From contig NZ_AP025739.1 in NCBI RefSeq assembly GCF_003574315.2, positions 3,410,001 to 3,474,000 on the forward strand: DNA of 64,000 bases, given 5' to 3'. Both the position numbers and the translations under genes were made by a program. Positions 1 to 27,327 of the stretch are shown here, piece by piece. Below the pieces are notes generated by a model, which was not told where the DNA came from, did not search any database, and worked only from the letters and a program-made list of their open reading frames with translations. This stretch comes from Capsulimonas corticalis. Lineage in GTDB: Bacteria; Armatimonadota; Armatimonadia; Armatimonadales; Capsulimonadaceae. The stretch's first letter is position 1; each line of letters begins with the position of its first letter.

Positions 1-1
1 G

Positions 2-403
2 AACGAGGCGGTCGGCGCCTTCTTTGAAAAGTATCCCACGGCGCTCGGCGCGTCAGTCCACACCGACACAGCCGGCTTCGGCTATATCGATCGAGCAAAG
101 TACCACGCCATCTTCTGTGCGGATGTCTCGGATGTCGAAGCGCGCGTGATGGCCGCCGCTCAAAAGCCCATCTTGATGGCGTCCTTCGGCGCTTCCTCCC
201 CCAGCGCGGCGTGGCGAACAATCCCGTCCTGGTACATGGTGGCCCAGGGAGACCTGTCGATCCACCCGGACCTGGAGCGCTTTTACGCCAAGCGCATGGG
301 CGCGCATACGACGGAAATCAAGGCCAGCCACTGCGCCTTCATCTCCCATCCGAAAGAGATCGCGGCGTTTATCGAGCAGGCGGCGGCAGCCGTCACAAAA
401 TGA
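2..403 (+). CDS. alpha/beta hydrolase, C-terminal part (cut by left edge)
   Basis: The frame is open from the left edge and ends in TGA at 401-403, leaving 133 residues. It matches the last part of alpha/beta-hydrolase esterases: PSWYMVAQGD followed by IHPDLER holds the probable acid residue (D in GDLSIHP), and KASHCAFISHP holds the probable catalytic histidine, followed by a closing helix rich in alanine. The nucleophile elbow lies outside the window, so the substrate cannot be judged. It converges with the small gene at 434-766, 30 bases away. Seen: the motifs. Inferred: the family. Confidence 0.75.
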   Translation, partial: NEAVGAFFEKYPTALGASVHTDTAGFGYIDRAKYHAIFCADVSDVEARVMAAAQKPILMASFGASSPSAAWRTIPSWYMVAQGDLSIHPDLERFYAKRMGAHTTEIKASHCAFISHPKEIAAFIEQAAAAVTK

Positions 404-433
404 GTCTGGGGGCGGCTGGCGAGGGATTGGCGT

Positions 434-766
434 TTACTGGGCTTCGTCCGCGAAGTAAAGCTCCCAGGCCTCAATCTCCAGCGTCAGCCGCTCCTGGATG
501 ATCTGCGGCGCGGACATGCCGCGTGTTCGAATCTGGTCATAAACGTCGCCGGCGGAGGGATCGGTTGTGTAGCCATGGCTGCGCATGGCCGTAAACAGAC
601 ATTGCGCGTGGCGTACGCCTTCGCGGCCGCAGCCGGCGACGATGCCCATTTCAAAACCCGTGAGCAAAATGTCGAGACTGGTAATATCGTCGGGGCGCCG
701 GAGGAACATGGCGGGACGGTTTTTGACTTTGGCGAGGACGTCAACGATCCTCTGTAAGCTGCTCAC
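434..766 (-). CDS. small hypothetical protein with RPAMFL motif
   Basis: A 110-residue soluble protein starting at GTG 766, with GGAG about eight bases upstream. The N-terminus (LQRIVDVLAKVKNRPAMFL, then a short loop and SLDILLTGFEMG) resembles small orphan proteins with an RPxMYLG-type motif after an amphipathic helix. No catalytic motif, signal peptide or membrane segment is visible. It converges with the hydrolase fragment. Function unknown; coding status is supported by base composition, ribosome site and lack of a better competing frame. Confidence 0.6.
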   Translation of the reverse strand: MSSLQRIVDVLAKVKNRPAMFLRRPDDITSLDILLTGFEMGIVAGCGREGVRHAQCLFTAMRSHGYTTDPSAGDVYDQIRTRGMSAPQIIQERLTLEIEAWELYFADEAQ

Positions 767-940
767 CCAAAGATCTCCGCAATTGAGATTTTGTCATGGA
801 GACGCCTTCCTGCGTGTAATATCCGTTTGCTTAGCGGATACGAACGCAGACTGATAAACAAGGTCGTCATCTGGGAGTATTATACGGATATGGGTTCGTC
901 GTTGTCAAATAACGCCACTATATTGAGGGGAGGCGGTGTA

Positions 941-1122
941 ATGTCAAAGGCCAAACGACTGTTTTTGGGCGTCTGATCGCCGTACTGCCCGTCGTTTCCT
1001 ACGTTGCGCTGCTGTTTTATTTCAGCGTGGTGAGTGACGCGGGAAGAGCCGTGACATCCTCCATAAAGCTTGGGGATTCGTACCAGCCCCCAAGGCCGGT
1101 GCTTTGTTTTCCCATATGCTGA
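941..1122 (+). pseudogene. remnant of a membrane protein N-terminus, frameshifted and truncated
   Basis: A good ribosome site (AGGGGAGGCGG at about 926-936) precedes ATG 941, which reads MSKAKRLFLGV and then stops. Adding one base to the T-run at about 961-965 would continue in the next frame as GRLIAVLPVVSYVALLFYF, a clear membrane helix, and on to TGA 1120-1122. The restored frame then runs into the 3' end of the glycosyltransferase gene on the other strand (1017-1769), where it no longer looks protein-like. It looks like the start of a gene whose body was removed, or a short membrane protein with an indel. Confidence 0.4.
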
Positions 1123-1769
1123 ACGAGACTGGGCGAAGTCGCGAATAGAGGCAGACCTTCTTGGGTGAGATAATAGCGCAGCAATATATCGTAGGGCGCA
1201 TCATTTCGCGCCAAGCCATGCTTTCTCAAATAGGTTCTAAACCCATGCCGCATCTTGGCGGTGTAGTACATCGCCTGCGTGCCATAAAATTTGTCGTATG
1301 GATACGAAACGAACAGTTCGCCGTGCGCGCATCCCGCCAGCGCAAAACTCTGCGGACAGTATAAAGAAACGGCGAAGTTATCGCCGTAACGGTCTTCCAG
1401 CACGGAGAGAGTGTCCAGTAGCCGGGCTTGCCAGCCGTGAGCGAAACGGATATCGTCCTCCAGCAATAGTGTTCCTCGCTTGCCGCCGATCGGTTCGTTG
1501 AGGCAGCGATAGTAGTTCCACGTCGCCCGATGGCGCACCGCGTTGTTCTTGATCCATGACCAAACTGTAGGCCCCATCTCCACGACCGTGATCCCGGGCA
1601 TTGGGCGAAGGTGGTCGAGGTGTAACGTGACCGGAGAGCCGACCACCAAAGATACTGAACGTTCACGGCTGATGGGGTACTCGCGCGAGAGGCTGCGCAA
1701 GGTCGCGTCCAGGTAATTTTCCTCGCGCCAGATGGTGGAAATCGCGAGATTGATCTTGTCGAATGTCAT
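1017..1769 (-). CDS. glycosyltransferase-like protein (GT-A type)
   Basis: A 250-residue cytoplasmic protein. Near residue 100 it has LLLEDDIRFAHGW, which looks like the metal-binding acidic motif of GT-A glycosyltransferases; the C-terminal PSLVQHMGKQSTGLG resembles the conserved end of MGAT4-like or LPS-type transferases. Start ATG 1769 is 14 bases after the stop of the nucleotidyltransferase gene on the same strand, so the two are probably co-transcribed. Donor and acceptor sugars cannot be read from sequence. Seen: acidic motif and tail. Inferred: transferase activity and a link to the neighbouring nucleotidyltransferase. Confidence 0.65.
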   Translation of the reverse strand: MTFDKINLAISTIWREENYLDATLRSLSREYPISRERSVSLVVGSPVTLHLDHLRPMPGITVVEMGPTVWSWIKNNAVRHRATWNYYRCLNEPIGGKRGTLLLEDDIRFAHGWQARLLDTLSVLEDRYGDNFAVSLYCPQSFALAGCAHGELFVSYPYDKFYGTQAMYYTAKMRHGFRTYLRKHGLARNDAPYDILLRYYLTQEGLPLFATSPSLVQHMGKQSTGLGGWYESPSFMEDVTALPASLTTLK

Positions 1770-1783
1770 CGCTTTAATTACCG

Positions 1784-3412
1784 TCAGTAAGACTTATCGG
1801 GAATTACGTGCAAGGGCAGCATGAGCAGGGCGTCTTCTCGGAAGCAGACATTGCTTTCATGACCGTCTCGGATCTTCATGACCAGCGTCATGATCGGAAC
1901 TTGTCGATCGGGGCGGAAGGCGGCGGGCATCTCGGACCATTCAAATGAGAGATGCGCCGCGCCGGTGTTTATGGCGGGATTCCCGAGGTCGTGCGCGCCA
2001 ATCTCCGTCCATTTGACGTTGCTGTAAGGGATTTCGAAGCCGGCTGGACGCGATCCCTGGAACTTGTATGGATAGTAAAGCAGCACTTGATAGCGATAAC
2101 CGGGCGGAAGCGCCCGGAGGATTTCGATCTCAAAGCGCAGAGCGTCGAGTTCCCAGAACGCGCGCAGCCGAGCGGGAATCTGATCTCGGGCAGGGCTCTG
2201 TACGAGGATCCGGGACAGCATTTGCGTTTCGCCGGATTCCTTTGGATGGCAGGACGCGGCGATATACCAGCTGCCGTCCGCCGCTACGCGATTCGGCTCC
2301 AAGCGATCGAAGACGTCTTTGGGATTGAGGCGCTGTAGCAGCTCGTCCGGCGTTCGCGGCGCCGTCCAGCCAGACCAGTTCGACAGCAGCATTGGAGCGC
2401 TTGTTGTTTCATGAGGCGACTCGTCAGAACTCAGCGCGCCTGCGGGATTCGGAGTTCTGAATGGGACGGCTCCCAAATATTGGCGTGCAAGGCTCTGGAC
2501 AAAGTTAACCGCATCGTGGGCGGAGAAGCGGTTGACAAGCCTATGGAAACGCCTCTCATCGAACTGCGGATGGCGCGCGAGATCGTGGATATCGGCCAGT
2601 TCTCCGAGCCGGACGATTGGAGATTCCAGCGCTTGCCCTTCGACATAATGACGGAAGGCGTGGACGCACAGCAGCAAGGCCGACATCATCGGGTTTGGCG
2701 CGGTCAGATCCTGCGTCCCAGGAGCAACGCCAGGGCAGGACTCGTCTGCGATCTCCTGGTAGTGGATCGACGTCTCTCGAAGATCGGAAAACGGCTGTAT
2801 CCAGAGGCCCGGATGAGCCTCGGGCCGCATATCGGCGCCGGCCAGCCCCGGCGGATAACTCCAGACCGGGAAGCTCCGATGGATCTCCACCTGCACATCC
2901 CCGCGATACATGACCGCGACATGGGAGCCCTTATCTCGCTTTTCTTCGGTCGCATATCCCAGCCTCGTCATCGCTTCCCAGAGGCTCTCCGGGTCTTTGG
3001 AAAAGAGATCAATATCGCCGCTCACCCGGATATTATCATCCCCTCCAGTGAGAGCGTAAATGGATAAGCCTTTGATAGGAATGACCGGTCCCGCGACTGC
3101 GGGGACAGATTTCACGATCTCTCCCAACGACGCGATCTGCTGCTGAATCCTGTGCCGGGCGAATCGATTCAGAGTAAAGGCCCGGATATTTAGCACGCGG
3201 GACGCCCACCGAGGCCGTTCCTTCTGGACTCGCCGGAAAAACCGGGAGTACAGGTTATGCGAGGCGATGAGAAGGAGCAGCGCATCCTCGTCCACGCTCC
3301 GCACAGCGTCAAAATCTCCGGGCGCGCCGGCGGCCCATTTGAGGATTTGCAGAATCGCGGCGTCGCTCGCGCTTTCTTCGTGAACCAATTTCCTAGATGG
3401 CGTTAGTTGCAA
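1784..3412 (-). CDS. NTP_transf_5-type nucleotidyltransferase family protein
   Basis: 542 residues, starting at TTG 3412 with AAGG nine bases upstream. Residues about 110-150 carry PIKGLSIYAL and then VSGDIDLFSKD, the G-x-D-x-D metal-binding signature of the large uncharacterised nucleotidyltransferase family (PF14907-like). The N-terminal helices before the motif fit the family; the C-terminal third (after about residue 350) is an extra beta-rich region with no recognised match. Relatives are often found beside HPr-kinase-like ATPases and PqqD-like proteins in peptide-associated clusters; here an HPr-kinase-like gene lies at 6933-7898. Substrate unknown. Confidence 0.75.
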   Translation of the reverse strand: MQLTPSRKLVHEESASDAAILQILKWAAGAPGDFDAVRSVDEDALLLLIASHNLYSRFFRRVQKERPRWASRVLNIRAFTLNRFARHRIQQQIASLGEIVKSVPAVAGPVIPIKGLSIYALTGGDDNIRVSGDIDLFSKDPESLWEAMTRLGYATEEKRDKGSHVAVMYRGDVQVEIHRSFPVWSYPPGLAGADMRPEAHPGLWIQPFSDLRETSIHYQEIADESCPGVAPGTQDLTAPNPMMSALLLCVHAFRHYVEGQALESPIVRLGELADIHDLARHPQFDERRFHRLVNRFSAHDAVNFVQSLARQYLGAVPFRTPNPAGALSSDESPHETTSAPMLLSNWSGWTAPRTPDELLQRLNPKDVFDRLEPNRVAADGSWYIAASCHPKESGETQMLSRILVQSPARDQIPARLRAFWELDALRFEIEILRALPPGYRYQVLLYYPYKFQGSRPAGFEIPYSNVKWTEIGAHDLGNPAINTGAAHLSFEWSEMPAAFRPDRQVPIMTLVMKIRDGHESNVCFREDALLMLPLHVIPDKSY

Positions 3413-3472
3413 TGACAGAAACCTTCATTCGTCGATTTCCAAACGGAGATATGGCCGATCGCGAAGCGCTGA

Positions 3473-3979
3473 CTAATAAAGAAGACTCTGAATCGGCGGC
3501 GCTGGATATCCCAGATCCGTCAGCGCAGCTTGCGCGGCCAGTCGGGTGGTGTCTTCCGGCGCCTTGAGGAGAGGAACGAGAGAGGGAATCGCTCGCTGAT
3601 AACCCATGGATCCCAGGACAGTGATGACAAGCGGCTTCAGGTCATTGCTGGGGTCGCCTGGATAGGATTTTGCGAGCATGGCGATACAAAGTTCGCTTGC
3701 CTGGCGCTTTTGTGTCAGGGTTAAGTTCTTCGCCGCGACCCATGCGCTCAATCCCGCCAGCGCATCGGACGCGGAAAAATGCTTTGTCTTCAGACCGTGA
3801 TAGATACTCGCAAAATCCTGCGTGCTGAGCTTGTGGGAGCTGGAAACGCCGAGGGAGATCGCCTCCAAGGACTTTGTGACGCCGCGATCCGTCGATGTGG
3901 CGGCGCCAGCGCGCAAACCGCCGGCGAATATCAACCCGGCGCTCACTGATAATATTGCGAGAGAAAGCTGCTTATTCAC
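3473..3979 (-). CDS. secreted helical-repeat (HEAT-like) protein
   Basis: The preferred start is GTG 3979, directly after the strong site AGGAGGGG; a longer frame to 4030 would run through the promoter and is rejected. The 168-residue product begins NKQLSLAILSVSAGLIF and GGLRAGAA, a signal peptide. The C-terminal half (LVITVLGSMGYQRAIPSLV, then LAAQAALTDLGYPAP) reads as HEAT-type helical repeats. It is the first gene of a leftward unit with the nucleotidyltransferase (60 bases on) and glycosyltransferase, driven by a near-consensus promoter at 4002-4030. Probably an exported protein-binding scaffold. Confidence 0.7.
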   Translation of the reverse strand: MNKQLSLAILSVSAGLIFAGGLRAGAATSTDRGVTKSLEAISLGVSSSHKLSTQDFASIYHGLKTKHFSASDALAGLSAWVAAKNLTLTQKRQASELCIAMLAKSYPGDPSNDLKPLVITVLGSMGYQRAIPSLVPLLKAPEDTTRLAAQAALTDLGYPAPPIQSLLY

Positions 3980-4001
3980 GAGATCCCCTCCTATTAAGAT
4001 G

Positions 4002-4030
4002 ATTGTAATAGAGATGGGACCATTTGTCAA
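4002..4030 (-). promoter_or_regulatory. sigma-70-type promoter for leftward HEAT/NTase/GT unit
   Basis: On the minus strand TTGACA (4030-4025), a 17-base spacer and TACAAT (4007-4002) lie just upstream of GTG 3979 and its AGGAGGGG site. Five of six -10 positions and all -35 positions match consensus. The spacer contains AATGGTCCCA (4024-4015), a 10-mer found again beside the opposite promoter. Confidence 0.75.
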
Positions 4031-4205
4031 GTTGTTTGCAAATATTACGGATCCATAATTAAGGTGATCGTGTTCTGGTTAGGATTGCGATACCAAAACC
4101 TCTCTCAAGGTAGTCAGAAACGGTTGCGTTACTCTCGAAAGTGATATTACATATGCTTCACAAGAAAAGTAACTTTTTGATTCATCAAATGCTCTCCAAA
4201 CTGGC
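4031..4205. other. non-coding part of the divergent intergenic region
   Basis: The space between the divergent starts at 3979 and 4378 is 398 bases and AT-rich compared with its surroundings. Apart from the two promoters and the repeated AATGGTCCCA-like motifs, I see no convincing gene here. An open minus-strand frame (4079-4663) is antisense to the TlpA-like gene and does not look coding. Confidence 0.5.
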
Positions 4206-4235
4206 TTGACAAATCGGGTTATGACTGTATATAAT
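4206..4235 (+). promoter_or_regulatory. sigma-70-type promoter for the six-gene rightward operon
   Basis: TTGACA at 4206-4211, 18-base spacer, TATAAT at 4230-4235: both hexamers are perfect. The -10 runs into AATGGTCCCA (4233-4242), the same 10-mer seen in the opposite promoter, and a third near-copy AATGGCTCCA (4268-4277) follows another TATAAT (4265-4270). The arrangement suggests one regulator controlling both directions. Confidence 0.8.
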
Positions 4236-4377
4236 GGTCCCACATCCAAAACGGCGCCGTTGCTATAATGGCTCCATAATCTTAGCAGCGCGAATTCAGA
4301 GCCGTCATGGCGAATGCGACGCCGTGTCATGGCGTGACGTTTTGTTTGTGTTTCCCATATTTCGGAGTGATAGAAAT

Positions 4378-4839
4378 ATGCCGCTTTCCATAGGAACCCC
4401 ACTTCCATCGCTTGCAGGCGCAACCGGTTGGTTAGGTGATTCTTTTGCAACAAATGCAATCCATGGAAGCCCGCTGCTCGTGCAGTTTTGGGCGATCTCC
4501 TGCCCTGTGTGCAGGATGAACGCGCCCCATCTCTTGGGGCTGATCGAAACCTATCGCGACCAGGGGTTGCAGCTGCTTTCCGTGCACATGCCGCGCATGG
4601 AGAGCGATATGGATGTGGCGGATGTCCGCGTGGAGGCGGAATCGCTGGGTTTAACCGGCCCATGCGCCGTGGACAACGAGCACACGATCGGCGATCTTTT
4701 TCAGACCGGAGGGGTCTGGCCGTGCTACTTCCTGTTTGACGCTCAAGGCAAGCTGCGCAGCCGCGCCGCCGGCCAGCTTGGCCTGAAGATGGCGGAGAAT
4801 TCGCTGAAGCGGATGCTGGCCCTAGAGCCGGCGCTTTAG
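4378..4839 (+). CDS. TlpA-like thioredoxin-fold oxidoreductase
   Basis: Start ATG 4378 follows CGGAGTG; the longer frame from 4234 begins inside the promoter and is rejected. The 153-residue product has FWAISCPVCRMNAP, giving a CPVC redox pair at C42/C45, and the cis-Pro strand region GGVWPCYFLFDAQGK near residue 120. No signal peptide, so it is predicted cytoplasmic. A paralogue of identical length lies at 27907-28368. It is the first gene of a + strand operon that includes a 12-cysteine protein two genes on, an obvious candidate substrate for disulfide exchange (inference). Confidence 0.85.
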   Translation: MPLSIGTPLPSLAGATGWLGDSFATNAIHGSPLLVQFWAISCPVCRMNAPHLLGLIETYRDQGLQLLSVHMPRMESDMDVADVRVEAESLGLTGPCAVDNEHTIGDLFQTGGVWPCYFLFDAQGKLRSRAAGQLGLKMAENSLKRMLALEPAL

Positions 4840-4885
4840 CTGTCCTGTACGTTCGGTAGAAAAGGAGGATGGTGGAACAGCAAAT

Positions 4886-5134
4886 ATGCTTATTGATGAT
4901 CGTGAAGAGTACATTGACCTGGTCGCGCAGGCGGTGATTGATCGGATTGAGGAACGCGACCGCCTCGCCGGGCTGGTGGATCTGGTAGTCCGCCGCGTTT
5001 TGGAACTACAGCATCAACAAGCAGAAGTGCAGAATAACGGTCAACAACCGCAATTGGACAACCAAAAGGAGATCGAGGATGCAGGACAAGCAATCGGAAT
5101 CGTTGGAACAGCAGGCGGCTCCCTCTGTCGCTGA
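4886..5134 (+). CDS. 82-aa acidic helical protein of the cysteine-protein operon
   Basis: Begins MLIDDREEYIDLVAQAV and is predicted to be nearly all helix with a polar Gln/Asn-rich tail. A strong AAAGGAGG lies at 4861-4868, an unusually long 17 bases before the ATG; GGTGGA nearer the start could also serve. Its last 56 bases overlap the start of the next gene in another frame, so the two are probably translationally coupled. No family recognised. Position directly before the cysteine-rich protein suggests a carrier, leader or chaperone partner, but that is inference. Confidence 0.55.
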   Translation: MLIDDREEYIDLVAQAVIDRIEERDRLAGLVDLVVRRVLELQHQQAEVQNNGQQPQLDNQKEIEDAGQAIGIVGTAGGSLCR

Positions 5135-5582
5135 AACCGCGGAAATGAAGTTCGAACGAGAGCGGCTGGCGCGTCGTAATGCACTGAAGCGCTTCGGAAT
5201 GACGTCAGCGATGGCGACATTGGCGTTATTTAGCGTCGACGACCTTGCCCGGATGGTGGGGAAAGCGCTGCAACAGCGCGCCGGCGATAACCAGATCGCC
5301 GGTCGCCTCGCCACCGAATTCCAAAGCATGGGCGCCGCCTTCGCCACGGGGATGCCAACTCCCAGCGCTTGCTCCACGCCCAATGCGTGTCAGGGACTTA
5401 GCACTTGCCAGTGTTGCGTTCAATCGAAAATCTGCGATCAGCTGAAATGTCAGGGCGCGCATACGATTAACTTACGCAACGGCATGGATCCCACGCAAGC
5501 CCAGTCCATCTTGGATGCGTGTAATTCCGCAGCCACTGCGAAGGCGTCCACATGCTGCACCACGAATCACTGTAACTGCTAA
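5079..5582 (+). CDS. 12-cysteine small protein with twin-Arg-like N-terminal segment
   Basis: 167 residues; AAAAGGAGATCGAGG precedes ATG 5079. Residues about 1-27 are charged and soluble, then ARRNALKRFGM leads into a hydrophobic stretch (TSAMATLALFS) that resembles a weak Tat-type or precursor leader region. The last 75 residues contain twelve cysteines, including CQCC, STCC and a terminal NHCNC, with no other recognisable fold. It is preceded by an oxidoreductase gene and followed by a membrane protein, a pseudopilin and an HPr-kinase-like gene. It could be an exported disulfide-rich protein or a modified peptide precursor. No homologous family recognised. Confidence 0.7.
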   Translation: MQDKQSESLEQQAAPSVAETAEMKFERERLARRNALKRFGMTSAMATLALFSVDDLARMVGKALQQRAGDNQIAGRLATEFQSMGAAFATGMPTPSACSTPNACQGLSTCQCCVQSKICDQLKCQGAHTINLRNGMDPTQAQSILDACNSAATAKASTCCTTNHCNC

Positions 5583-5610
5583 TAGGCGGGTTAGTCTCGA
5601 TCCTATAAGA

Positions 5611-5648
5611 GCGATCCCGCAAGACCTCTCTGAGCCTTGTGGGATCGC
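5611..5648 (+). other. stable hairpin between the 12-Cys gene and the next gene
   Basis: GCGATCCCGCAAG (5611-5623) pairs with CTTGTGGGATCGC (5636-5648): 13 pairs including one G-U, 12-base loop. No U-run follows, so it is not a standard terminator; it may stabilise the upstream mRNA or lower expression of downstream genes. Confidence 0.6.
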
Positions 5649-5670
5649 CGCGCCAAGGAATACTCCGAGA

Positions 5671-6066
5671 ATGCAGAAGCCTAAGATCCAAATCATTTTC
5701 TCGCTCATCGTTTTGTCTATCGCCGGAATGTTGCTTTGGGGGCAGCTAAAGCCCGTCCCGCGACCTGCCAAGACGCCTTTTCAGATCGAGCAAGAACAGT
5801 TTGTCAAGAAGATGAACAGCGATAACGACTGGTTTAAACAAGCCTACGCGCATGGAGTGTCCCCCAAGGTGCTCGGGGAGAAAGAGGTCGCAGCGACCAA
5901 TGCGACCATTCGAGAAATTCATCTTGTCGGTAAACGACCGGATTGGGGATCTCTTAGTGTCGAAGAGAGAACGCGCATCACGGACGAAGTCAATCGAAAG
6001 AGCGATGCGGCGAGGCAGGTGATGCGAGACTCGTACTACACAAAGCCGTTCAAACCGGATTGGTAA
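5671..6066 (+). CDS. membrane-anchored hypothetical protein
   Basis: 131 residues from ATG 5671 (upstream AAGGAA). Residues about 6-24 (IQIIFSLIVLSIAGMLLWG) form one membrane anchor or uncleaved signal; the rest is polar and helical with no cysteine, so it is not a redox partner. The motif DWFKQAYAHGVSP and a repeated TNATIREI/TDEVNRKS pattern are visible but not recognised. It sits inside the six-gene + strand operon, after the 5611-5648 hairpin and 68 bases before the pseudopilin gene. Likely periplasmic or surface-facing accessory protein; function unknown. Confidence 0.6.
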   Translation: MQKPKIQIIFSLIVLSIAGMLLWGQLKPVPRPAKTPFQIEQEQFVKKMNSDNDWFKQAYAHGVSPKVLGEKEVAATNATIREIHLVGKRPDWGSLSVEERTRITDEVNRKSDAARQVMRDSYYTKPFKPDW

Positions 6067-6133
6067 ACACGCCGTTTGCTTGCATGATTAGCATGGCGTA
6101 GCGTCGTCGTGGAAATGAAAGGAGCGAGGAAGT

Positions 6134-6865
6134 ATGAGCGGAGAGAAAACAAATCGCGGCGTGGCGGCCGGGTTTACGCTGATCGAGCTTCTCGTCGTCA
6201 TCAGCATCATTGCGTTGCTGGTCGCCATTCTGCTGCCGGTTTTCACCTCGGCTCGGCGCAGGGCTCAGCAGGTGACTTGCCTTTCCAATCTGCGCCAGCT
6301 CGGAATCGCGACCTTTCAATACGCGCAGGATTACGACGATCGTTACCCCTATGGCGGTGATCCGGTCGATTTGGATACGGACGAATTCGTCGATACGTGG
6401 CAGACCTGGCAGGGAGGACGATATGGGCAGGCGATTCAGCAGATGAGGGCAAATAAGCAGTTGCTTCCGAACGTGATGTTCGCTTATGTGAAAAATCGCG
6501 AACTCTGGCATTGCCCTTCCGACAATGGATTTACCCTCGCCGGCACTTTTGAGGGGACGCCTCTGGATGCTGGTTCGTCTTGTTTTGATTCCTTTGGCAT
6601 GAGCTACGGGTATACGACTCTGTTGGCGCTGGACGGGCAAACGATCAGCGGGGTTCGGGCGTGGAGCCGCAAGGCGCCCTACAGCGATCACGATCCGGTG
6701 GATGTCCCACTGTTCGCCGATCAGGTCGGACTCTGGCACGGAGGCATGGAGCGGAAGGAGGAGCGACTGAATATGGTGATGCTGGATGGTCACGCGATCA
6801 GCGTGACGCGCGATCGCGCGGACGCGCTGAACAATATTCTGTTTACCGTTCCCTTGCCCGATTAG
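6134..6865 (+). CDS. type II/IV pseudopilin (DUF1559-related)
   Basis: 243 residues; AAAGGAGCGAGG upstream of ATG 6134. The N-terminus has the class III signal [20 protein letters not shown], to be cut before F by a prepilin peptidase with the helix retained in the membrane. [23 protein letters not shown] is the usual continuation in DUF1559-type proteins, and [11 protein letters not shown] near the end is the DGH element. Cysteines at the mid-protein ([14 protein letters not shown]) may form a disulfide. In such genomes these are abundant surface or secretion-associated proteins; here it is in an operon with a cysteine-rich protein and a kinase-like protein. Confidence 0.85.
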
Positions 6866-6932
6866 CTGGAGCGGCGATTGCAGGAATTTCTTCCGGGTTC
6901 CCTTCGATGTGGAGGCAGGAGATGGCTCAAGC

Positions 6933-7898
6933 GTGATTTATCACATCAACGAATTTTCCGTCGACAGCGAATTTGATTTGCCGTGCGAGATGGCTGGCGC
7001 TTCCTCTCGCCTGAACGCCAAGTCCGATATGATCGCGCTGCGGCGGGCGTCTCTCGCGCATATCTCCTGCACGATGAGAAAGATTCGCCCCCAGCTTATC
7101 TATGATGTGGGCGATGGCTTACTATTAGAACCCAATACGACCCGTGGAATGCTGGCTCTTCATATCGACTTCAAAGGGCGAGCGATGACAGTAGATTGCG
7201 CCGACGATTTGTTGGAAATTGCTTCGGCCTGGGCCATTCATGCGGGGCTGGGCGTGGCGACGCTGACGCACGGCGGGATTCCGCTGCATGGGGCGGGCAT
7301 CCAAATGGTTGGTCGCTCTATCGCTTTGATGGCCGATTCCGGAGCGGGGAAATCAACCCTTTCCTGGTTTTTATTACGGCATGGAGCGCGCTTTGCGAAC
7401 GACGATCTGATTCCCGTGCGAATGATGGGGGAGGAGGCTATCGCTTTTCCTTCCGTTTCCCTGTATCCCAAACTGTCTCGGGAAGCGGTGGATCTGCACG
7501 GAATGGAGATTGAAAATCTTATTCCCGCCGATTATGGCGTGGGAGAGGAAGAGTATTACGTTCCTTTGCCCAGCGCACAACGCGTTGCGGAGCCATCCCC
7601 GCTTGCCGCCATCTTTTTGATCCGGCCTCAGCCTCTCCCGAAAGAGAGTTTGCTGAAACCGAAGCATATGCGGACTCTGGTGACTTCGCGCCGGCTTTCC
7701 GACGAGGAAGCAACGAGGACGCTGAGGCGTAATCTGCACGCCGCCTGGCTCATGGAGAGATGGATGGATGGCGGAAAATTGAATGGACTGTGCCATGATC
7801 TTGCCGCGCGAGTTCCAATTTACGAACTCAGCTATCCGCGATTTTTCGCCATTTTGCCCACTCTCGCGCAGTGCGTCGCTCAACTCATCGAGAGTTGA
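6933..7898 (+). CDS. HPr-kinase/phosphorylase-like ATPase (HprK-related)
   Basis: GTG 6933 is preferred, with GGAGGCAGGAG at 6911-6921; a longer frame could begin at GTG 6909. About 321 residues. The P-loop ADSGAGKST lies near residues 134-142 and FANDDLIPV near 154-162, the arrangement of the HPr kinase fold. The protein lacks the usual N-terminal HprK domain, and no HPr/PTS gene is in the window. Such kinase-like proteins recur next to NTP_transf_5 proteins and small peptide genes; one is at 1784-3412. Possible role: phosphorylating the operon's small protein (inference). It ends 15 bases from ssuB, convergently. Confidence 0.75.
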   Translation: MIYHINEFSVDSEFDLPCEMAGASSRLNAKSDMIALRRASLAHISCTMRKIRPQLIYDVGDGLLLEPNTTRGMLALHIDFKGRAMTVDCADDLLEIASAWAIHAGLGVATLTHGGIPLHGAGIQMVGRSIALMADSGAGKSTLSWFLLRHGARFANDDLIPVRMMGEEAIAFPSVSLYPKLSREAVDLHGMEIENLIPADYGVGEEEYYVPLPSAQRVAEPSPLAAIFLIRPQPLPKESLLKPKHMRTLVTSRRLSDEEATRTLRRNLHAAWLMERWMDGGKLNGLCHDLAARVPIYELSYPRFFAILPTLAQCVAQLIES

Positions 7899-7912
7899 GC
7901 GACGCCGCCGCT

Positions 7913-8680
7913 TCACTCGGCGGCTCGCACATGGCGCAGGATCTCTTCGCGCAGGGCGATGAACTCCGCCGAGGCGCGGTCGCGCGGGCGGGGGAGTTGG
8001 ACGGGGATGTCGACGGAGATGACGCCGTTCTGAATCTGGACGACGCGGTCGGCGAGGGCGACGGCTTCTTCGGCGTCGTGCGTGATGAGCAGGGTGGTGA
8101 AGCCGCGCTGCCGCCAGAGGTCTTCGATCAGGCGCTGCATGTCCGGGCGAGTCAGGGCGTCGAGCGCGCCGAGCGGTTCGTCGAGCAGCAGGAAACGAGG
8201 ATGACTGGCGAGGGCGCGCGCGAGGGCGACGCGCTGGCGCTGGCCGCCGCTGAGGATCGACGGCCAATCCTTGCCCCGGTCTCCCAGACCCACATCATCC
8301 AGCGCCGCCTGCGCCTTCGGCTTCCAGTCGCCGGTGAGTCCAAGCCCTGTGTTTTCCAGCACGTGCATCCACGGCATCAAACGCGCGTCCTGGAACATCA
8401 CACGGACATCCGGATGCAGCGTGCGGAGCGGCTGATCGTCGATCGCGACCAGCCCCCGGGTCGCCGGCTCCAGTCCCGCCAGCAGACGCAGCAGCGTGCT
8501 CTTGCCGCACCCGCTGCGCCCAACCACCGCCACGAACTCGCCCGGCGCGATATCTAAGTCCAAATCGACCAGAACTTTGTTCTCGCCAAAGTATTTATGC
8601 GCCCCGCGTACGGTGACGCGCGCGCCCTGGGAATCGCCTTTTAAGCCTTCAAATTGTGGTTTTTGTAGAATTGTCGCCAC
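7913..8680 (-). CDS. ssuB: aliphatic sulfonate ABC transporter ATP-binding protein SsuB-like
   Basis: 255 residues. Walker A GRSGCGKS at 54-61, signature LSGGQRQR from 143, Walker B FLLLDEP from 163, and H-loop His near 201. Strong similarity in layout to SsuB/TauB ATPases ([11 protein letters not shown] is typical). It is the last gene of a leftward operon that also encodes a permease, a lipoprotein substrate-binding protein, a ferredoxin and a flavoprotein. It is separated from the permease by 309 bases holding a large inverted-repeat element (8719-8983), so its expression may be lower or independent. Substrate (sulfonate, taurine or a related organosulfur compound) is inferred. Confidence 0.85.
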
Positions 8681-8718
8681 GATGGAGATCCTTGCTTGGT
8701 TCTAAAAATCGTCTGCAA

Positions 8719-8983
8719 GGATGCCCCCGGCCCCATGGGAGCTTATAAGACTAGGTTTTTTCGACCACGTTGCACCCGAGTATAAAACTCGGGCCTTGGG
8801 AGTCGCTTCGCGACTAAGCGTCCGTGCCGGACGCAAATGCCGGCAATCGATCGCAGTTTCCTCCGTCCGGAACGGACGGTTAGCCGAAGGCTCCCAAGAC
8901 CCGGCTTTTATAGCCGGGGATCGCATACGCTGACGCCTACGAAAACCTCTCCTTATGAACCCAGTGGGGGCCGGGGGGCATCC
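8719..8983. repeat. composite inverted-repeat element with nested hairpins
   Basis: The region between ssuC and ssuB is almost wholly an imperfect inverted duplication. Ends: GGATGCCCCC (8719) and GGGGGCATCC (to 8983). Left unit hairpins: CCCGAGT/ACTCGGG (8775-8793), AGTCGC/GCGACT (8801-8815), GCGTCCG/CGGACGC (8818-8834). Right unit mirrors them: CCGTCCG/CGGACGG (8863-8879), AGCC/GGCT (8882-8892), CCCGGCT/AGCCGGG (8900-8917). CTTGGGAG (8795-8802) pairs with CTCCCAAG (8891-8898). Stem differences between the two units are compensatory. No transposase is encoded. The few bases outside it hold no gene. Confidence 0.8.
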
Positions 8984-8989
8984 TCCTCT

Positions 8990-9853
8990 CTACTTCGCCG
9001 CCCCTCCATACCCCGTGTGCCAGGGTAGGAAGACGCGCTCCAGCAGCCGCGCCGCCAGGTCCGCGCCCTTGCCGAGCAGGGCGTAGAGCAGGATGCCGAA
9101 GACGACGACGTCGGTTTGCATGTATTCGCGGGCGTTGGTGGTCATGTAGCCGATGCCGGAGTCGGCGGCGACGGTTTCGGCGACAATTAGGGTCAGCCAC
9201 ATTGCGCCTAGCGCGAACCGGAGGCCGATCAGGATCGAGGGCAGTGCGGCGGGAAGGATGACTTGCCGAAACAGACGGAAGCCTTTGATCCCGTAGACGC
9301 GGCCGGCTTCCACGAGGGAAGGATCAACGGCGCGCATGCCGTGGAAGGTGTTCAGGTAAATCGGGAAGAAGACGCCGAGCGCAACCAGGACGATCTTGGT
9401 TTCTTCGCCAATGCCGAACCACAGGATCAGCAGCGGGATCAGGGCGAGGTGCGGGATCGTGCGCGCCATCTGGATGGTGCTGTCCAGCGTTTGCTCGCTG
9501 CGTCGAACCAGGCCGTTGATCATGCCGAAGAGGAAGCCCAGGGAGCCGCCGATCGCGAAGCCGGTGAAGGCGCGCTTGGCGCTGATGGCGATGTCCGCCG
9601 CCAGTTCGGTGTGCGCCAGGACGACGCCGGCTTTGACAACTCCCACCGGAGAGGGCAGCACCTGCGGCGCGATCGTCCCGCGCTGGGCCAGCCATTGCCA
9701 GACGGCGAGGATGACCAGCGGGACGGCCCAGGGCAGCACGCGGCCCCAGAGATCGCCGCCGGAGCGGACGGCGGATTTGGGCGCCGCCATGCGGGATTCT
9801 GCTGGCGCGACGGACCCGCGCCAGATCCGTCGGGACGCGATGGGAGTGCTCAT
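8990..9853 (-). CDS. ssuC: sulfonate ABC transporter permease SsuC-like
   Basis: 287 residues with about six membrane segments; the N-terminal ~35 residues are polar and cytoplasmic. VEAGRVYGIKGFRLFRQVILP (shortened: EAGRVYGIKGFRLF) is the EAA loop that contacts the ATPase, near residues 195-215, followed by LRFALGAMWLTLIVAE, typical of SsuC/TauC permeases. It follows the substrate-binding lipoprotein gene by 11 bases on the same strand. The inverted-repeat element begins six bases after its stop. Predicted to import an organic sulfur compound together with SsuA and SsuB. Confidence 0.85.
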   Translation of the reverse strand: MSTPIASRRIWRGSVAPAESRMAAPKSAVRSGGDLWGRVLPWAVPLVILAVWQWLAQRGTIAPQVLPSPVGVVKAGVVLAHTELAADIAISAKRAFTGFAIGGSLGFLFGMINGLVRRSEQTLDSTIQMARTIPHLALIPLLILWFGIGEETKIVLVALGVFFPIYLNTFHGMRAVDPSLVEAGRVYGIKGFRLFRQVILPAALPSILIGLRFALGAMWLTLIVAETVAADSGIGYMTTNAREYMQTDVVVFGILLYALLGKGADLAARLLERVFLPWHTGYGGAAK

Positions 9854-9864
9854 CTTGTGTTCTC

Positions 9865-10905
9865 CTATTTCGGCAGCGCCGCCGATTGCGTGGCGCCTGC
9901 AGGGGAAACAGTCCAGGTCTTCAAGTCAAAGTCCGATTTGGCGAGATGCTGCTGCACGAGGAACGCCTTGGTGCCGCTGAGCAGCGCCAGACCTTTGGGC
10001 GTGAACGGCTCTTTGGAATAGAGCGCGATCGGATAGGACGCCTTGACGATTGGCTCGGGCAGCTTGCTCAGAGCCGTCTGAAATTGGTAGTAATCTTCCG
10101 GGTGCGCCTGCGCGTTGTCGATCGCGTTAGCGCGCGCCTTGTTCCAGATCGCCGGGAACTGCGGATGGGCGGCAAGATAGGTTTCGGAAACGACCGTGAC
10201 GCCGCTGCCGCTGAGGCCTGGGTGCTGGTTCGCCTGATCGATCGCCTTGTAGCCGTGCTGGATCAGCAAAGGACCGGTCCCGCCTGGGGCCGCATAGGCG
10301 GCGATGTCGCCATGCTGGAGCGCGGATTCGGCGGCGTTGGGAAGCAGATGGACGAACTTCACATCCTTGGTCAGATTCTTCTCCGCGAGCAATCCCAGCA
10401 GGTAGCGCGCCATATAGGAGCCTTTGGAGGTGGCGACGGTCTTGCCGCGCAGATCATCCACCGTCTTTGGCCCGTCGGCGCGGACGATCAGCCAGGCGTT
10501 CGTCCCCACGGTGTTCTGATTGATGGCGCGGGTAGGGAGGCCCGCCGATCGTCCGACCAGGGCCGGAGTATCGCCGTATTCGCCGACATCCAGGCCGCCC
10601 GCCGCCATCGCTTCATTCAGGTCTGGTCCATTCGCGAACGGCGTGAACTCGATCTGAGTGATCCCCGCGCTCGCGAGGTCCTTGATCAGCGTCCCTTGCT
10701 TGTAGGCGAGACCTTCGGGACCCGACGGCTGCTTGCCGGTCGTGCTGATGATGCCGACGCGCAGAACTCCCGTTTGGCTGCTCTCATATCCGCCCGGGGA
10801 GTGCGCGCCCTTGGGGCCACAGCCCACAAATAGCAGCGGCAAGGCCAGCGCGCCGGCGGCGATCCATCGGCGTTCGATTCGTTTTCCAGCAACTCTCGTA
10901 CTCAA
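9865..10905 (-). CDS. ssuA: sulfonate/taurine ABC transporter substrate-binding lipoprotein
   Basis: TTG 10905 is the best start (AAGGA seven bases upstream); GTG 10908 is a one-codon alternative, and the frame to 11004 overlaps the ferredoxin gene and is rejected. About 346 residues. The signal ends in LPLLFVGCG, a lipobox with Cys as lipid anchor. The body (VLRVGIISTTG, then NEAMAAGGLDVGEYGDTP) has the NMT1/SsuA-like periplasmic binding fold. It lies between the ferredoxin and ssuC on the same strand. Specificity for sulfonates is inferred from the neighbours. Confidence 0.8.
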   Translation of the reverse strand: MSTRVAGKRIERRWIAAGALALPLLFVGCGPKGAHSPGGYESSQTGVLRVGIISTTGKQPSGPEGLAYKQGTLIKDLASAGITQIEFTPFANGPDLNEAMAAGGLDVGEYGDTPALVGRSAGLPTRAINQNTVGTNAWLIVRADGPKTVDDLRGKTVATSKGSYMARYLLGLLAEKNLTKDVKFVHLLPNAAESALQHGDIAAYAAPGGTGPLLIQHGYKAIDQANQHPGLSGSGVTVVSETYLAAHPQFPAIWNKARANAIDNAQAHPEDYYQFQTALSKLPEPIVKASYPIALYSKEPFTPKGLALLSGTKAFLVQQHLAKSDFDLKTWTVSPAGATQSAALPK

Positions 10906-10957
10906 CACAAATTCCTTCCAACTCTCACGACGCAGACTCGATCCTTCCGATTCTGCG

Positions 10958-11302
10958 CTAATGCAGAACTTTGCGGATCTTCTCCTGCATATAATCCGTC
11001 GCATCGACCTTCGCCGCTCCGGGAGTGCGGCCCGGACCCCAGCCGACCGCCTCGCGGTAGCTGCCGAGCAGTCCCAGGTCGATCAACCGGTCTTCGTCCA
11101 CCGCCACCGACGCCTCCGCTTCGGGGGCGACATACAGCGCATCCGCCGGGCAATAAACTTCGCACATGAAACAGGTCTGGCATGCCGACTGCCGGGCGAT
11201 GACCGGCGCGCCGCCGTCGACCTCGTCGAAGACGTTCGTCGGGCAGACCTTCACGCAAAGGTTGCATTCGATGCAGCGGGATTGGCTGACAAGTTCGATC
11301 AT
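10958..11302 (-). CDS. 2[4Fe-4S] ferredoxin-like protein
   Basis: 114 residues. Two cluster motifs: C10-x2-C13-x2-C16-x3-C20-P and C41-x2-C44-x2-C47-x3-C51-P, as in dicluster ferredoxins and AprB-like subunits. Its start overlaps the stop of the flavoprotein gene by four bases (ATGA), so the two are translationally coupled and probably form an electron-transfer pair. The tail after residue 56 is extra and rich in acidic residues. Likely passes electrons to or from the flavoprotein in organosulfur metabolism. Confidence 0.85.
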   Translation of the reverse strand: MIELVSQSRCIECNLCVKVCPTNVFDEVDGGAPVIARQSACQTCFMCEVYCPADALYVAPEAEASVAVDEDRLIDLGLLGSYREAVGWGPGRTPGAAKVDATDYMQEKIRKVLH

Positions 11303-12933
11303 CGGGACACCGTTTCTTTCGGGGCGGGGGCGGCGACGCTGGTCGGGTCGGGTTTGACCCAGACCGTATCCAGCCCGCCGCTCAGGAGTCGATACTGCTG
11401 CTCCGGCGACTGCGCGGGGTGGTCCACCCGCTTGTGCATGCCGCGCGTCTCGGTGCGGACATGGGCGCTGGCGTACATCCAGCGCGCGGTCGCCACCATC
11501 GCCGCCGCCTGCCGCGCCTGGATCACGCCCTCGGTCGTGGAAGCGGATTCCGGACGGCCCTGCACGGCGCGCCAGAGTCCATTGAGCTCCACCAGCGAAC
11601 TGCGCAGGCCGGCTTCGGTGCGGAACAGATTCTTGTCGTAGGGCGTGACTTCCGACTGCACGCCGCGAACGATCTCGGCGGTGTCGAAGCCCGCTCCGGC
11701 GGGACGCAGCGCGGCGCGGCCCGCGCCGCGCAGACGCCGGTTGTGCGCCTTTTCGCCCAGCGACAGGGCATACGCCGCCGCGCCGCCACCGGCCCAGTAG
11801 CCCGAAGAGATCGCCCAGGCGGCGTTGTGGCTGCCGCCGCCGGTAAAGCCGCCGCAGATCAGCTCGCGCGTCGCGGCGTCGCCCGCCGCGTACAGGCCCG
11901 GCGCCGTGGTGGCGCAGGTCGTGTCGGCGATCCGAATGCCGCCGGTGCCGCGCACGGTGCCTTCCAGGCGCATCGTCACCGGGAACCGGTCCGTGAACGG
12001 GTTGATCCCGGCGCGATCGAACGGCAGGAAGAAATTGGGCTGGCCCTTGCGCATCCAGACCTGCGTTTCGTCATCGGCTTTGTCGAGCTGGCAGAAGACC
12101 GGCTGCGTGAGCAGTGTTTTGGCGATGATCGAGCGCCCGCGCTGCGATCCCGCGCCTTCGATCACGCGGCCGTCTTCGTAGGTGAAGGACGCCCAGCTAT
12201 AGTAGGCGCTCTTGGTGACGGACGAGAACGCCGGCGCCAGCGAATACGCGTTGGAAAACTCCATGCCGCTCATCTCGCCGCCGGCCTCGGCGGCCATCAG
12301 GCCGCCGTCGCCCGTCAAAACGTTCGTTCCCAGCGCCTTGCTCAAAAACGCGCAGCCGCCGGTGGCGATCACCACGGCGCCGGCCTTCACCGACCAGGGC
12401 CGATTTTCCTGACGCTGCACGCCCGCCGCGCCGGCCACAACGCCGTCGAAATCCAGCAGCAGCTCCAGCGCCGGGCTATGATCCAGAATCTTCACACCCG
12501 CCTGTTTCACGACTTTGCGCATGATCTTCATGTATTCCGGACCCTGCATACCGCGCCGTACCTGCTCGCCGCGCTCGTTGGTCGGGAACGGATACCCCCA
12601 CTGCGCGAGATGCGCGACATTCTCATAGGTCTGATCCAGCACGCGGTCCATCCAGCTATGATCGGCCAAAAATCCGCCGAGCGCTTCCCGGCTCGCCTTC
12701 GCCTTCGCGCGCTCTTCCGGATCGGGCTGTACATACCAGACACCCACGCCCGACGGCGCCGTCGCGCCGCTGGCGCCGCAGTACCCCTTGTCCGCCAGCA
12801 CCACGCGCGCGCCCTTCGATGCGGCGCTCCACGCTGCCCACGTCCCGGCGGGACCGCCGCCGATGACCAGGACATCCGCCGTCAATTCGAGCGGTTCGTT
12901 CTGCTGGGTCGAGATCGAAAAAGCGTCACTCAT
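11299..12933 (-). CDS. FAD-dependent oxidoreductase (fumarate-reductase/AprA-like flavoprotein)
   Basis: ATG 12933 gives 544 residues; the frame open to 13053 runs into the leader terminator and is rejected. GGGPAG at 25-30 is the FAD Rossmann motif, followed by ADKGYCGASGATAPSG, and LYAAGDAATRELICGGFTGG near residue 385 is the second FAD-binding region. The architecture is that of succinate dehydrogenase/fumarate reductase and adenylylsulfate reductase A subunits. It begins the operon with a ferredoxin, SsuA, SsuC and SsuB, so a role in oxidising or reducing an imported sulfur compound is likely. It is not a typical SsuD monooxygenase; none is present here. Confidence 0.8.
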   Translation of the reverse strand: MSDAFSISTQQNEPLELTADVLVIGGGPAGTWAAWSAASKGARVVLADKGYCGASGATAPSGVGVWYVQPDPEERAKAKASREALGGFLADHSWMDRVLDQTYENVAHLAQWGYPFPTNERGEQVRRGMQGPEYMKIMRKVVKQAGVKILDHSPALELLLDFDGVVAGAAGVQRQENRPWSVKAGAVVIATGGCAFLSKALGTNVLTGDGGLMAAEAGGEMSGMEFSNAYSLAPAFSSVTKSAYYSWASFTYEDGRVIEGAGSQRGRSIIAKTLLTQPVFCQLDKADDETQVWMRKGQPNFFLPFDRAGINPFTDRFPVTMRLEGTVRGTGGIRIADTTCATTAPGLYAAGDAATRELICGGFTGGGSHNAAWAISSGYWAGGGAAAYALSLGEKAHNRRLRGAGRAALRPAGAGFDTAEIVRGVQSEVTPYDKNLFRTEAGLRSSLVELNGLWRAVQGRPESASTTEGVIQARQAAAMVATARWMYASAHVRTETRGMHKRVDHPAQSPEQQYRLLSGGLDTVWVKPDPTSVAAPAPKETVSR

Positions 12934-12993
12934 TGGGTTTGTATCCTTTACAGGTCGTTCAAAGATCGCGGAAAAGTATGGCAATCCAAATGC

Positions 12994-13026
12994 AAAAAGA
13001 GGCCCAAGCACAGTTGCTTGGGCCTC
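12994..13026 (-). terminator. intrinsic terminator in the leader of the organosulfur operon
   Basis: A perfect 12-bp stem (GAGGCCCAAGCA at 12999-13010 with TGCTTGGGCCTC at 13015-13026, loop CAGT) is followed on the minus strand by five U (12998-12994). It sits about 60 bases after the promoter and 60 bases before ATG 12933, so most transcripts should stop here unless it is overridden: a probable attenuator. Confidence 0.75.
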
Positions 13027-13087
13027 CAGGTGTCTAGTCGGCGATGAAATCACTATTTAGTTACTAGTAAAACTAGCGATATTTCAA

Positions 13088-13116
13088 ATTATACCGAGGG
13101 CGCTGTGGAATGTCAA
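13088..13116 (-). promoter_or_regulatory. consensus sigma-70-type promoter of the organosulfur operon
   Basis: On the minus strand TTGACA (13116-13111), 17-base spacer, TATAAT (13093-13088): both hexamers perfect. The leader that follows contains CTAGT/ACTAG and GAAAT/ATTTC pairings (about 13036-13086) before the terminator hairpin, which could form an alternative structure. Confidence 0.8.
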
Positions 13117-13133
13117 TAGGCGCGGGAAGAAAA

Positions 13134-14009
13134 TTACAGCGTCACAAACGGCGCGATCTTGGCCAGCTTTTTTTCGCCGATGCCTTTGACGTCCATCAAA
13201 TCTTCGATCTTATGGAAGCCGCCGTTCTGCGTGCGATAGTCGATGATATGCGCGGCGGTGGCGGGGCCGACGCCTGGCAGGCGCTCCAAATCCGTCGCCG
13301 AAGCGGTGTTGATGTTGATGCGCTCGCCGGACGCGGCGGTAATTTTGTCGGGATGGGAGGCGTGCGCGTGGGTCGGAGCGCCTTCTTCCGATGATGCGGC
13401 AGGCTCCGAGCCGGCGGCTTGGTCGCCTGCGGAGGCAGAAGGACTGGGGGCGACGGCGCTGGCGTCAATCGGCAGCGGGACGGCTTTTCCGAAGGCGGGC
13501 AGCGGGGAGGCGGCCGGCAAGCGCGGAGCGCGCGCAACGTGGATCGTCGTGTGGCCGATGCTGTTGCCGGGCGTATAATGCTGGATCCTGGCGGGATCTT
13601 CGTGGCGTTCGGGGACGTAAATCTTTTCACCGTCCGCGATCGGCTCCGCGAGGTTCAAGGCGTCGAGATCGGCTTTGGAAGTCCCGCCACCCGCCGCATG
13701 GATGGCGTTGGCGACACGGTTGGGGAGGGGAAGATGATAGAGGCCCGGATTTCGGACCGCTCCGGCGACGTGCACGTAGCAAATCAAATCGGAGGGCAGA
13801 ATAGAGGTGGTCGATCCAACCGCCGTCAGGGTTTTCGTGGGCGCCGCGCTCAGAACATCCGGCGCGCCGCCCGGCGCGGCGCTGGGAGCATCGGTAATTG
13901 TGATCGGCGCTGGGGGCGTGTGACGCTTTGCGTAAAGGTTCGCGCCTCCGGCGCACGCGATCACGCCAATGACGGCGACGAGCGCCCAGCGAATCCGAGG
14001 GTCCTGCAT
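13134..14009 (-). CDS. comEA: ComEA-like protein with SLBB and helix-hairpin-helix domains
   Basis: 291 residues, ATG 14009. One N-terminal membrane anchor (ALVAVIGVIACAGGANL), then a proline/alanine-rich spacer. An SLBB domain (CYVHVAGAVRNPGLYHL, near residues 77-130) is followed by a long Ala/Ser/Pro linker and a C-terminal double helix-hairpin-helix (LERLPGVGPATAAHI and MDVKGIGEKKLAKIAPF). This is the domain order of ComEA, the surface DNA receptor for competence, although the linker is longer than usual. No comEC is visible in the window. It is preceded by the 14032-14220 repeat element. Confidence 0.85.
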   Translation of the reverse strand: MQDPRIRWALVAVIGVIACAGGANLYAKRHTPPAPITITDAPSAAPGGAPDVLSAAPTKTLTAVGSTTSILPSDLICYVHVAGAVRNPGLYHLPLPNRVANAIHAAGGGTSKADLDALNLAEPIADGEKIYVPERHEDPARIQHYTPGNSIGHTTIHVARAPRLPAASPLPAFGKAVPLPIDASAVAPSPSASAGDQAAGSEPAASSEEGAPTHAHASHPDKITAASGERININTASATDLERLPGVGPATAAHIIDYRTQNGGFHKIEDLMDVKGIGEKKLAKIAPFVTL

Positions 14010-27238: not shown

Positions 27239-27327
27239 AAAGGCGCTTACGGGAACTGTCCCGCGAAGTTCCGTTGTTAACCAAACGATCACCCAGTTGT
27301 AACTATAGATGGAGGCTTTTCATTACG

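Follow-up and report, generated by a model that had tools for sequence, protein, structure and literature searches.

A redoxin-type locus pairing a small partner protein with a twin-arginine-leader, cysteine-rich protein in Capsulimonas corticalis

The stretch of DNA analyzed here (the window; 64,000 bp, bases 3,410,001 to 3,474,000 of the 7.65-Mb single-contig genome of Capsulimonas corticalis) carries, at 1017 to 7898, a locus of nine genes in two divergent groups. All nine open reading frames (ORFs), listed in a preliminary description of the sequence, were confirmed on re-reading. At the center of the locus, an 82-residue protein is followed by a protein with a twin-arginine translocation (Tat)-type leader and 12 cysteines, the count given in that description. 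Small protein and leader gene constitute a conserved pair, and the locus is a redoxin-type branch of a wider Tat-leader family that has so far been found in one phylum, the Armatimonadota, and a putative maturation/export unit. We assign a probability of roughly 50% to the reading that the rightward operon encodes a precursor-like, cysteine-rich protein along with the enzymes for its maturation and export.

The small protein of the window is 54% identical to its counterpart in genome G009 (46 residues) and 75% identical to that in G053. Proteins akin to it share the motif VAQAV.D..EE and precede each homolog of the 12-Cys protein. A profile built from five small proteins of redoxin-type loci reached distant members in other families (best E value, 6e-7), and a 17-row profile retrieved 26 places, spread over 15 of 291 Armatimonadota genomes, at E values of <1e-10; rows included in the model match it by construction, and weaker hits were dropped. 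Of these places, 25 were read, the remaining one (G004:C629) being a strong match at a contig end. When 84,980 species were scanned with one small-protein query alignment, 17 loci were retrieved, all from metagenome-assembled genomes of Armatimonadota; these genomes bear the taxon names Armatimonadetes, Abditibacteriales, Chthonomonadales, and Chthonomonadaceae, plus some labeled simply "bacterium." For that single query alignment, no small protein was found outside the phylum.

A leader gene is adjacent to the small-protein gene at 16 of the 25 loci and lies 1.6 to 6 kb away at 3; four loci are cut by a contig end and two have no leader gene, one of the latter being followed directly by a radical S-adenosylmethionine (SAM) fragment at a contig end. 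Cysteine-rich products are encoded by 15/16 adjacent and 1/3 distant leader genes. The cysteine-rich total is thus 16 of 19 leader genes (5 to 10% Cys; 10 to 60 Cys), and on this recount we rejected the notion of a cysteine-rich partner everywhere. The three exceptions (L085, L089, and L162) stand beside or near a small-protein gene, which shows that the family can dispense with cysteines. In the sequence covered, these three loci have neither a radical SAM nor a redoxin gene; L085 and L162 also have an ORF with a CGCSxGQxGG motif. At the other extreme, a Tat-leader protein beside a small partner gene in G274 (L087:903-2690) has 60 Cys in a 596-residue frame with CxxPFxC-like repeats and is a possible radical SAM target.

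The 12-Cys gene starts at ATG 5079, with AAGGAG upstream, and overlaps the 82-residue protein gene by 56 bp. Among 61 greedy ORFs in the 64 kb, two of ≤300 residues reach 5% Cys, and the 12-Cys protein is the richest. Among the 290 other genomes, three have homologs with E values of <1e-12, with four places in all (G053, G024, and G009 twice). Further weak matches (E values of 0.002 to 0.009, most with internal stop codons) were discarded, and no convincing paralog was found in the window genome (next best E value, 0.057). About 60 leader residues around the twin-arginine (RR) motif are common to the family; the cysteine-rich ends are hypervariable. In hhalign comparisons, redoxin-type leaders (4 rows) aligned with the other leaders (11 rows, including three from stretches free of radical SAM genes that are not or little cysteine rich or undecided) over 61 columns at 96.1% probability. 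As a control, nine unrelated Tat-type signals aligned with the redoxin-type leaders over 13 columns (5.8%) and with the other leaders over 17 columns (70%), in both cases in the RR region only. These results indicate that the leaders share ancestry beyond a generic Tat signal and that the RR part behaves like a Tat signal.

The RR pair is present in all aligned leaders (4 redoxin type and 11 others; G053, where this region is out of frame, was left out), and TatC was found in 8/8 genomes tested. By sequence, the protein therefore has the attributes of a Tat substrate: an RR motif, a hydrophobic stretch near the N terminus, and a translocase gene in the genome. The Tat-target family TIGR02811 matched the G055 protein below its cutoff (E value, 0.0024). 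With a conserved leader, a hypervariable core, and candidate modifying enzymes at the locus, the gene also resembles, in the wide sense, that of a ribosomally synthesized and posttranslationally modified peptide (RiPP). The preliminary description had proposed a system that makes, oxidizes, and exports a cysteine-rich product; it missed the twin-arginine leader, but its locus type is conserved in relatives, where a search of Armatimonadota for the gene set found the core to recur.

The gene order in G053 is small protein, Cys protein, tetratricopeptide repeat (TPR) membrane protein, redoxin, HprK, and NTP_transf_5. In G024 (C81), the small and Cys proteins are followed by a membrane protein, redoxin, and pseudopilin before the contig ends, and in G009 (C49), they are followed by a lipoprotein-like protein, redoxin, pseudopilin, and AbiEii-like nucleotidyltransferase. 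At a second place in G009 (C168), the contig ends after the Cys gene. Two other G024 contigs (C44 and C75) have membrane proteins, a redoxin, and a pseudopilin, with no Cys gene in the sequence covered; C75 also encodes a nucleotidyltransferase related to that of G009 (33% over 184 residues) and, by eye, a peroxiredoxin. G009 has four small-protein copies (C43, C49, C113, and C168), two cut by a contig end and two <1 kb from such an end, a pattern suggestive of repeated loci that interrupt the assembly.

Related loci fall into types by the enzyme present. In the sequence covered at the 25 small-protein loci, several of which lie at contig ends, radical SAM genes were found at 7 (G055 C32, G032 C76, G033, G242, G259 twice, and G007 C375; one is a contig-end fragment), redoxin genes at 4 (the window, G053, G024 C81, and G009 C49), both at 0, and neither at 14. 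Seven radical SAM proteins were run against NCBIfam, and for five of them the best family was NF047865 PapB (E values of 1e-66 to 1e-78), all below its cutoff of 340 bits; a second radical SAM protein of G055 comes nearest to the maturase of quinohemoprotein amine dehydrogenase, and a G032 ORF comes nearest to a nif11 maturase. At the window locus, a disulfide-handling redoxin plus a kinase and a nucleotidyltransferase appear to stand in for the radical enzyme of relatives. The preliminary description had remarked on the absence of the usual PqqD and radical SAM proteins, and this held: window bases 1 to 14000 yielded no radical SAM gene and the nine proteins no PqqD match, although related loci do have radical SAM genes. 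The G055 PapB-like protein, used as a query, had no match at E values of ≤1e-3 in the window genome, G024, or G053; in G009, it gave a single weak match (2.3e-8).

The cores differ accordingly. In seven radical SAM-type proteins (two of them long), an aromatic residue or His stands two positions before 86 of 123 core cysteines (20 expected); in five redoxin-type proteins, this holds for 3/58 (3.8 expected). Cysteines of the radical SAM-type proteins are almost never <5 residues apart (2 pairs at a distance of 1 to 4, ∼58 expected), whereas close pairs do occur in the redoxin type. Thus, core design goes with enzyme type. A tree of 20 small proteins placed the four redoxin-type proteins and two unlabeled G009 rows on one side of a branch with 100/99 support. 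The radical SAM loci of Armatimonadota resemble those of ranthipeptides (PapB/SCIFF type) in having a radical SAM-SPASM protein beside cysteine-rich proteins with a conserved leader. Unlike ranthipeptides, the leaders are long and Tat-like, a small partner and often a pseudopilin are present, and the window-type locus itself lacks a radical SAM gene.

The closest solved structure to the locus redoxin is YkuV (PDB entry 2b5x; E value, 1.1e-26). Its mechanically called start, ATG 4234, was rejected: it falls within the −10 box, and the start is therefore placed at ATG 4378 (MPLSIG...). Read from there, the protein shows no signal peptide on inspection by eye and so should be cytosolic, a likely location that the preliminary description missed when it correctly called a CPVC oxidoreductase. 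Homologs occur at the loci of G024, G053, and G009. The locus redoxin is 47% identical to a paralog elsewhere in the window (27907 to 28368). A peroxiredoxin-like gene (by eye; 27274 to 27879, + strand) lies directly ahead of that paralog, and the pair also occurs in G015 and G018.

A redoxin could also serve a protein that undergoes no covalent maturation. The 12-Cys protein might be a Tat-exported binder of a metal such as copper, similar to Csp1, with the redoxin keeping its thiols reduced. As described in PMC7558416, Csp1-type proteins combine a Tat signal with Cu(I) bound in a four-helix bundle; here, too, a Tat-type leader precedes a cysteine-rich end that is predicted to form a helical hairpin (mean predicted local distance difference test [pLDDT] score of 57 for the model; block averages of 75 to 88 for residues 111 to 160). 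However, a Pfam copper-storage match was found neither for the window protein (E values of ≤1) nor for its four homologs (≤0.1), no copper genes were seen by eye at the locus, and the excess of i,i+4 Cys spacings was not significant (12 versus 8.6, reached in 246/2,000 shuffles). Moreover, the window leader is homologous to those of maturase-linked proteins, and relatives with the same leader carry maturase genes. We consider a metal binder somewhat improbable and favor a maturation and export locus.

A kinase and a nucleotidyltransferase would add further chemistry to such a locus. The HprK-like protein, which probably starts at GTG 6933, aligned with the solved HPr kinase/phosphatase 1ko7 across the His, Walker A, and Asp-Asp region; Hpr_kinase_C reached 24.3 bits in Pfam, below its cutoff of 33.3. 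Judged from its sequence, the protein has an HprK catalytic core. Strong homologs were found in G053 only (E value, 6e-70), with weak ones in 17 further genomes (best E values of 3e-7 to 1e-3). For NTP_transf_5, the only homolog at E values of ≤1e-6 among the 290 other genomes is at the G053 locus, the PDB search returned no match, and a structure model was discarded (mean pLDDT, 36); a carbohydrate-binding appearance of the C-terminal portion, noted only by eye, is not put forward. Thus, strong HprK and NTP_transf_5 matches coincide: of 291 genomes, the window genome and G053 alone have them, each at its Cys locus. The association of these genes with the 12-Cys gene, as previously described, therefore recurs at the G053 Cys locus, but in two genomes only and with damaged copies in G053.

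A broadly similar pair of enzymes acts in lasso peptide biosynthesis. Phosphorylated and phosphoglycosylated lasso peptides (paeninodin and pseudomycoidin) involve an HPr-kinase homolog and a nucleotidyltransferase, and for pseudomycoidin the two phosphorylate the peptide and put hexoses on the phosphate, according to PMC8498205. In contrast to lasso peptides, the window product is cysteine rich and much larger, and no Pfam or NCBIfam match to a lasso cyclase or B protein was found among the nine proteins (wider flanks were not searched). The locus also differs from PqqD-linked HPr-rel-A systems, as HprK_rel_A scored 24.3 bits against a cutoff of 200 and no PqqD match was found among the nine proteins. 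Bufferins, which are made by MNIO enzymes, and other RiPPs with an export signal as leader are similar to the locus in that such a signal forms the leader of a cysteine-rich modified product. No MNIO-type match was found among the nine window proteins. In the main text of the bufferin paper, neither Tat nor twin-arginine is mentioned (PMC12452194).

The HprK-like, NTP_transf_5, and GT-A-like proteins could instead belong to an independent module for glycan or peptide tagging that just happens to lie beside the cysteine-rich operon. The leftward genes have their own promoter, a paralog of the GT-A-like gene is flanked by glycosyltransferase-like ORFs (by eye), and this type of HprK and NTP_transf_5 is missing in G024 and G009. 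Arguing otherwise, HprK is the last of the rightward genes, and both it and NTP_transf_5 stand at the Cys locus of a genome of a different family (G053) and nowhere else in 291 genomes (E values of <1e-6 for NTP_transf_5 and <1e-7 for HprK). We therefore regard a separate module as unlikely.

Downstream of the redoxin, 82-residue, and 12-Cys protein genes, the rightward group continues at 5671 to 7898 with the membrane protein, pseudopilin, and HprK-like genes (Table 1). The membrane protein slot is occupied in relatives by a TPR, PsbP-like, or lipoprotein-like gene, and no sequence homolog of the window protein was found in 28 other loci. A related pilin lies close by at 9 of the 25 small-protein loci, of both enzyme types, which would suit a surface appendage, with the Cys protein as a structural or accessory component of a pseudopilus and the redoxin as its assembly factor. 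This explanation appears quite unlikely: some loci, that of G053 included, yielded no pseudopilin; inspection by eye showed no secretin, ATPase, or prepilin peptidase at the loci; and the window genome has very many pilin-type genes.

Table 1. Features of the locus (window coordinates)
Feature	Position	Strand	Evidence or remark
Probable GT-A glycosyltransferase	1017..1769	−	No meaningful Pfam match; 46% paralog
NTP_transf_5 nucleotidyltransferase, C-terminal extension	1784..3412	−	PF14907, E value 6.6e-18, above cutoff
HEAT-like protein, signal-like N terminus (by eye)	3473..3979	−	HEAT_2, 26.7 bits versus cutoff of 27.7
Sigma-70-type promoter of leftward genes, TTGACA-17-TACAAT	4002..4030	−	11/12 consensus positions
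Sigma-70-type promoter of rightward genes, TTGACA-18-TATAAT	4206..4235	+	12/12 consensus positions
Probably cytosolic YkuV-like redoxin, CPVC motif	4378..4839	+	AhpC-TSA Pfam, 2.4e-10, above cutoff
82-aa small partner protein	4886..5134	+	First ∼45 residues are the conserved part
12-Cys precursor-like protein	5079..5582	+	Twin-arginine leader (residues ∼24 to 90), then variable Cys-rich end
Small membrane-anchored protein	5671..6066	+	Slot between Cys gene and redoxin kept in L039, L040, and L042
DUF1559-type pseudopilin	6134..6865	+	Pfam N_methyl 1.5e-6 and SBP_bac_10/DUF1559 4e-5, above cutoffs; NCBIfam
HprK-like kinase	6933..7898	+	1ko7, E value 3.6e-4; HprK_rel_B 2.6e-7, below cutoff; 43% homolog at G053

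Both divergent promoters of the preliminary description were correctly placed. Our scan returned six sites in total, of which the remaining four reach 9/12; shuffled sequence gave a mean of 3.8 sites at the 9-of-12 threshold. The HEAT-like gene starts at GTG 3979, with AGGAGG upstream. Neither the HEAT-like nor the GT-A-like protein has homologs in the 28 other loci, and the earlier view of the nine genes as one unit is accordingly not supported for these two. The GT-A-like protein was also found in 0/60 relatives and in 0/12 further system-bearing genomes; the latter result says little, as that set included no positive genome, though elsewhere the query recovers itself and the paralog. The 82-residue, 12-Cys, and membrane proteins likewise have no meaningful Pfam match, and an Rfam search of 800 to 9000 returned zero matches. 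The fraction of guanine plus cytosine at third codon positions is 0.53 to 0.71 across the locus, compared with 0.79 at 7913 to 8680 and 0.82 at 27907 to 28368; against these two comparison genes only, the lower value may hint at foreign origin. Next to the locus, the leftward genes at 7913 to 13053 (− strand) encode, by eye, an ABC transporter ATPase, permease, and binding protein, followed by ferredoxin-like and AprA-like flavoprotein genes, and perhaps serve sulfur compound uptake.

From the gene content, we infer a product that may be oxidized, exported, and phosphorylated or glycosylated. The small partner would bind or guard the leader, as chaperones do for other Tat substrates, and the cytosolic YkuV-like redoxin would set the pairing of core cysteines ahead of export. 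Pairing before export is proposed because Tat carries folded proteins; some cargoes need dedicated chaperones, as stated in PMC6708511. The Cys protein would then exit via Tat, and the membrane protein and pseudopilin could help to retain it at the surface or to hand it on there. More speculatively, the HprK-like kinase might phosphorylate the product, and NTP_transf_5, perhaps with the GT-A-like enzyme, might cap the phosphate with a sugar or nucleotide. These last steps are modeled on pseudomycoidin, where a similar enzyme pair acts.

Several observations weigh against a dedicated maturation and export locus. The Cys gene of G024 (L040) has no usual in-frame start, and in G053 (L039) NTP_transf_5 has a frameshift, HprK has an early stop, and the RR-encoding part of the Cys gene lies out of frame; these defects may reflect decay or assembly error. 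G009 and G024 have no window-type HprK or NTP_transf_5 and carry AbiEii-like nucleotidyltransferases instead, so the two window enzymes are accessory at best. Three leader genes encode few cysteines (2 in L085, 1 in L089, and 6 in the whole frame of L162). In the small-protein tree, just one branch out of 17 has good support, and 100 of 500 label shuffles grouped the redoxin label at least as tightly, since the unlabeled G009 rows lie inside the group. The redoxin family is common (92/291 genomes at E values of ≤1e-10), so the copy at the locus, seemingly a duplicate recruited from a common protein, is no marker on its own; it could also keep cysteines reduced rather than oxidize them. Prior disulfide formation is not always required for Tat, to judge from the title of a work cited in PMC6708511. 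The window leader has no obvious AxA cleavage site by eye, and at least 150 pseudopilin-type starts in the window genome weaken the significance of an adjacent pseudopilin.

As a tentative extension of the maturation and export reading, the family may represent a phylum-restricted platform in which one Tat leader and one small adaptor are combined with exchangeable chemistry. Radical SAM enzymes would cross-link aromatic-flanked cysteines at regular spacing in one type, and disulfide formation plus phosphate or sugar addition would be directed at a helical core in the other. The adaptor would be a new leader-recognition protein that replaces PqqD or the RiPP recognition element. No description of such a system was found in the literature searched, to which subscription journals are largely external, or in the available part of PMC8692599. 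If correct, the proposal would join Tat export to the enzymatic maturation of cysteine-rich products, and two different chemistries would serve one leader/partner pair, providing a test of the modularity of maturation systems. The locus would also offer a first handle on a group of cysteine-rich, probably exported proteins of Armatimonadota.

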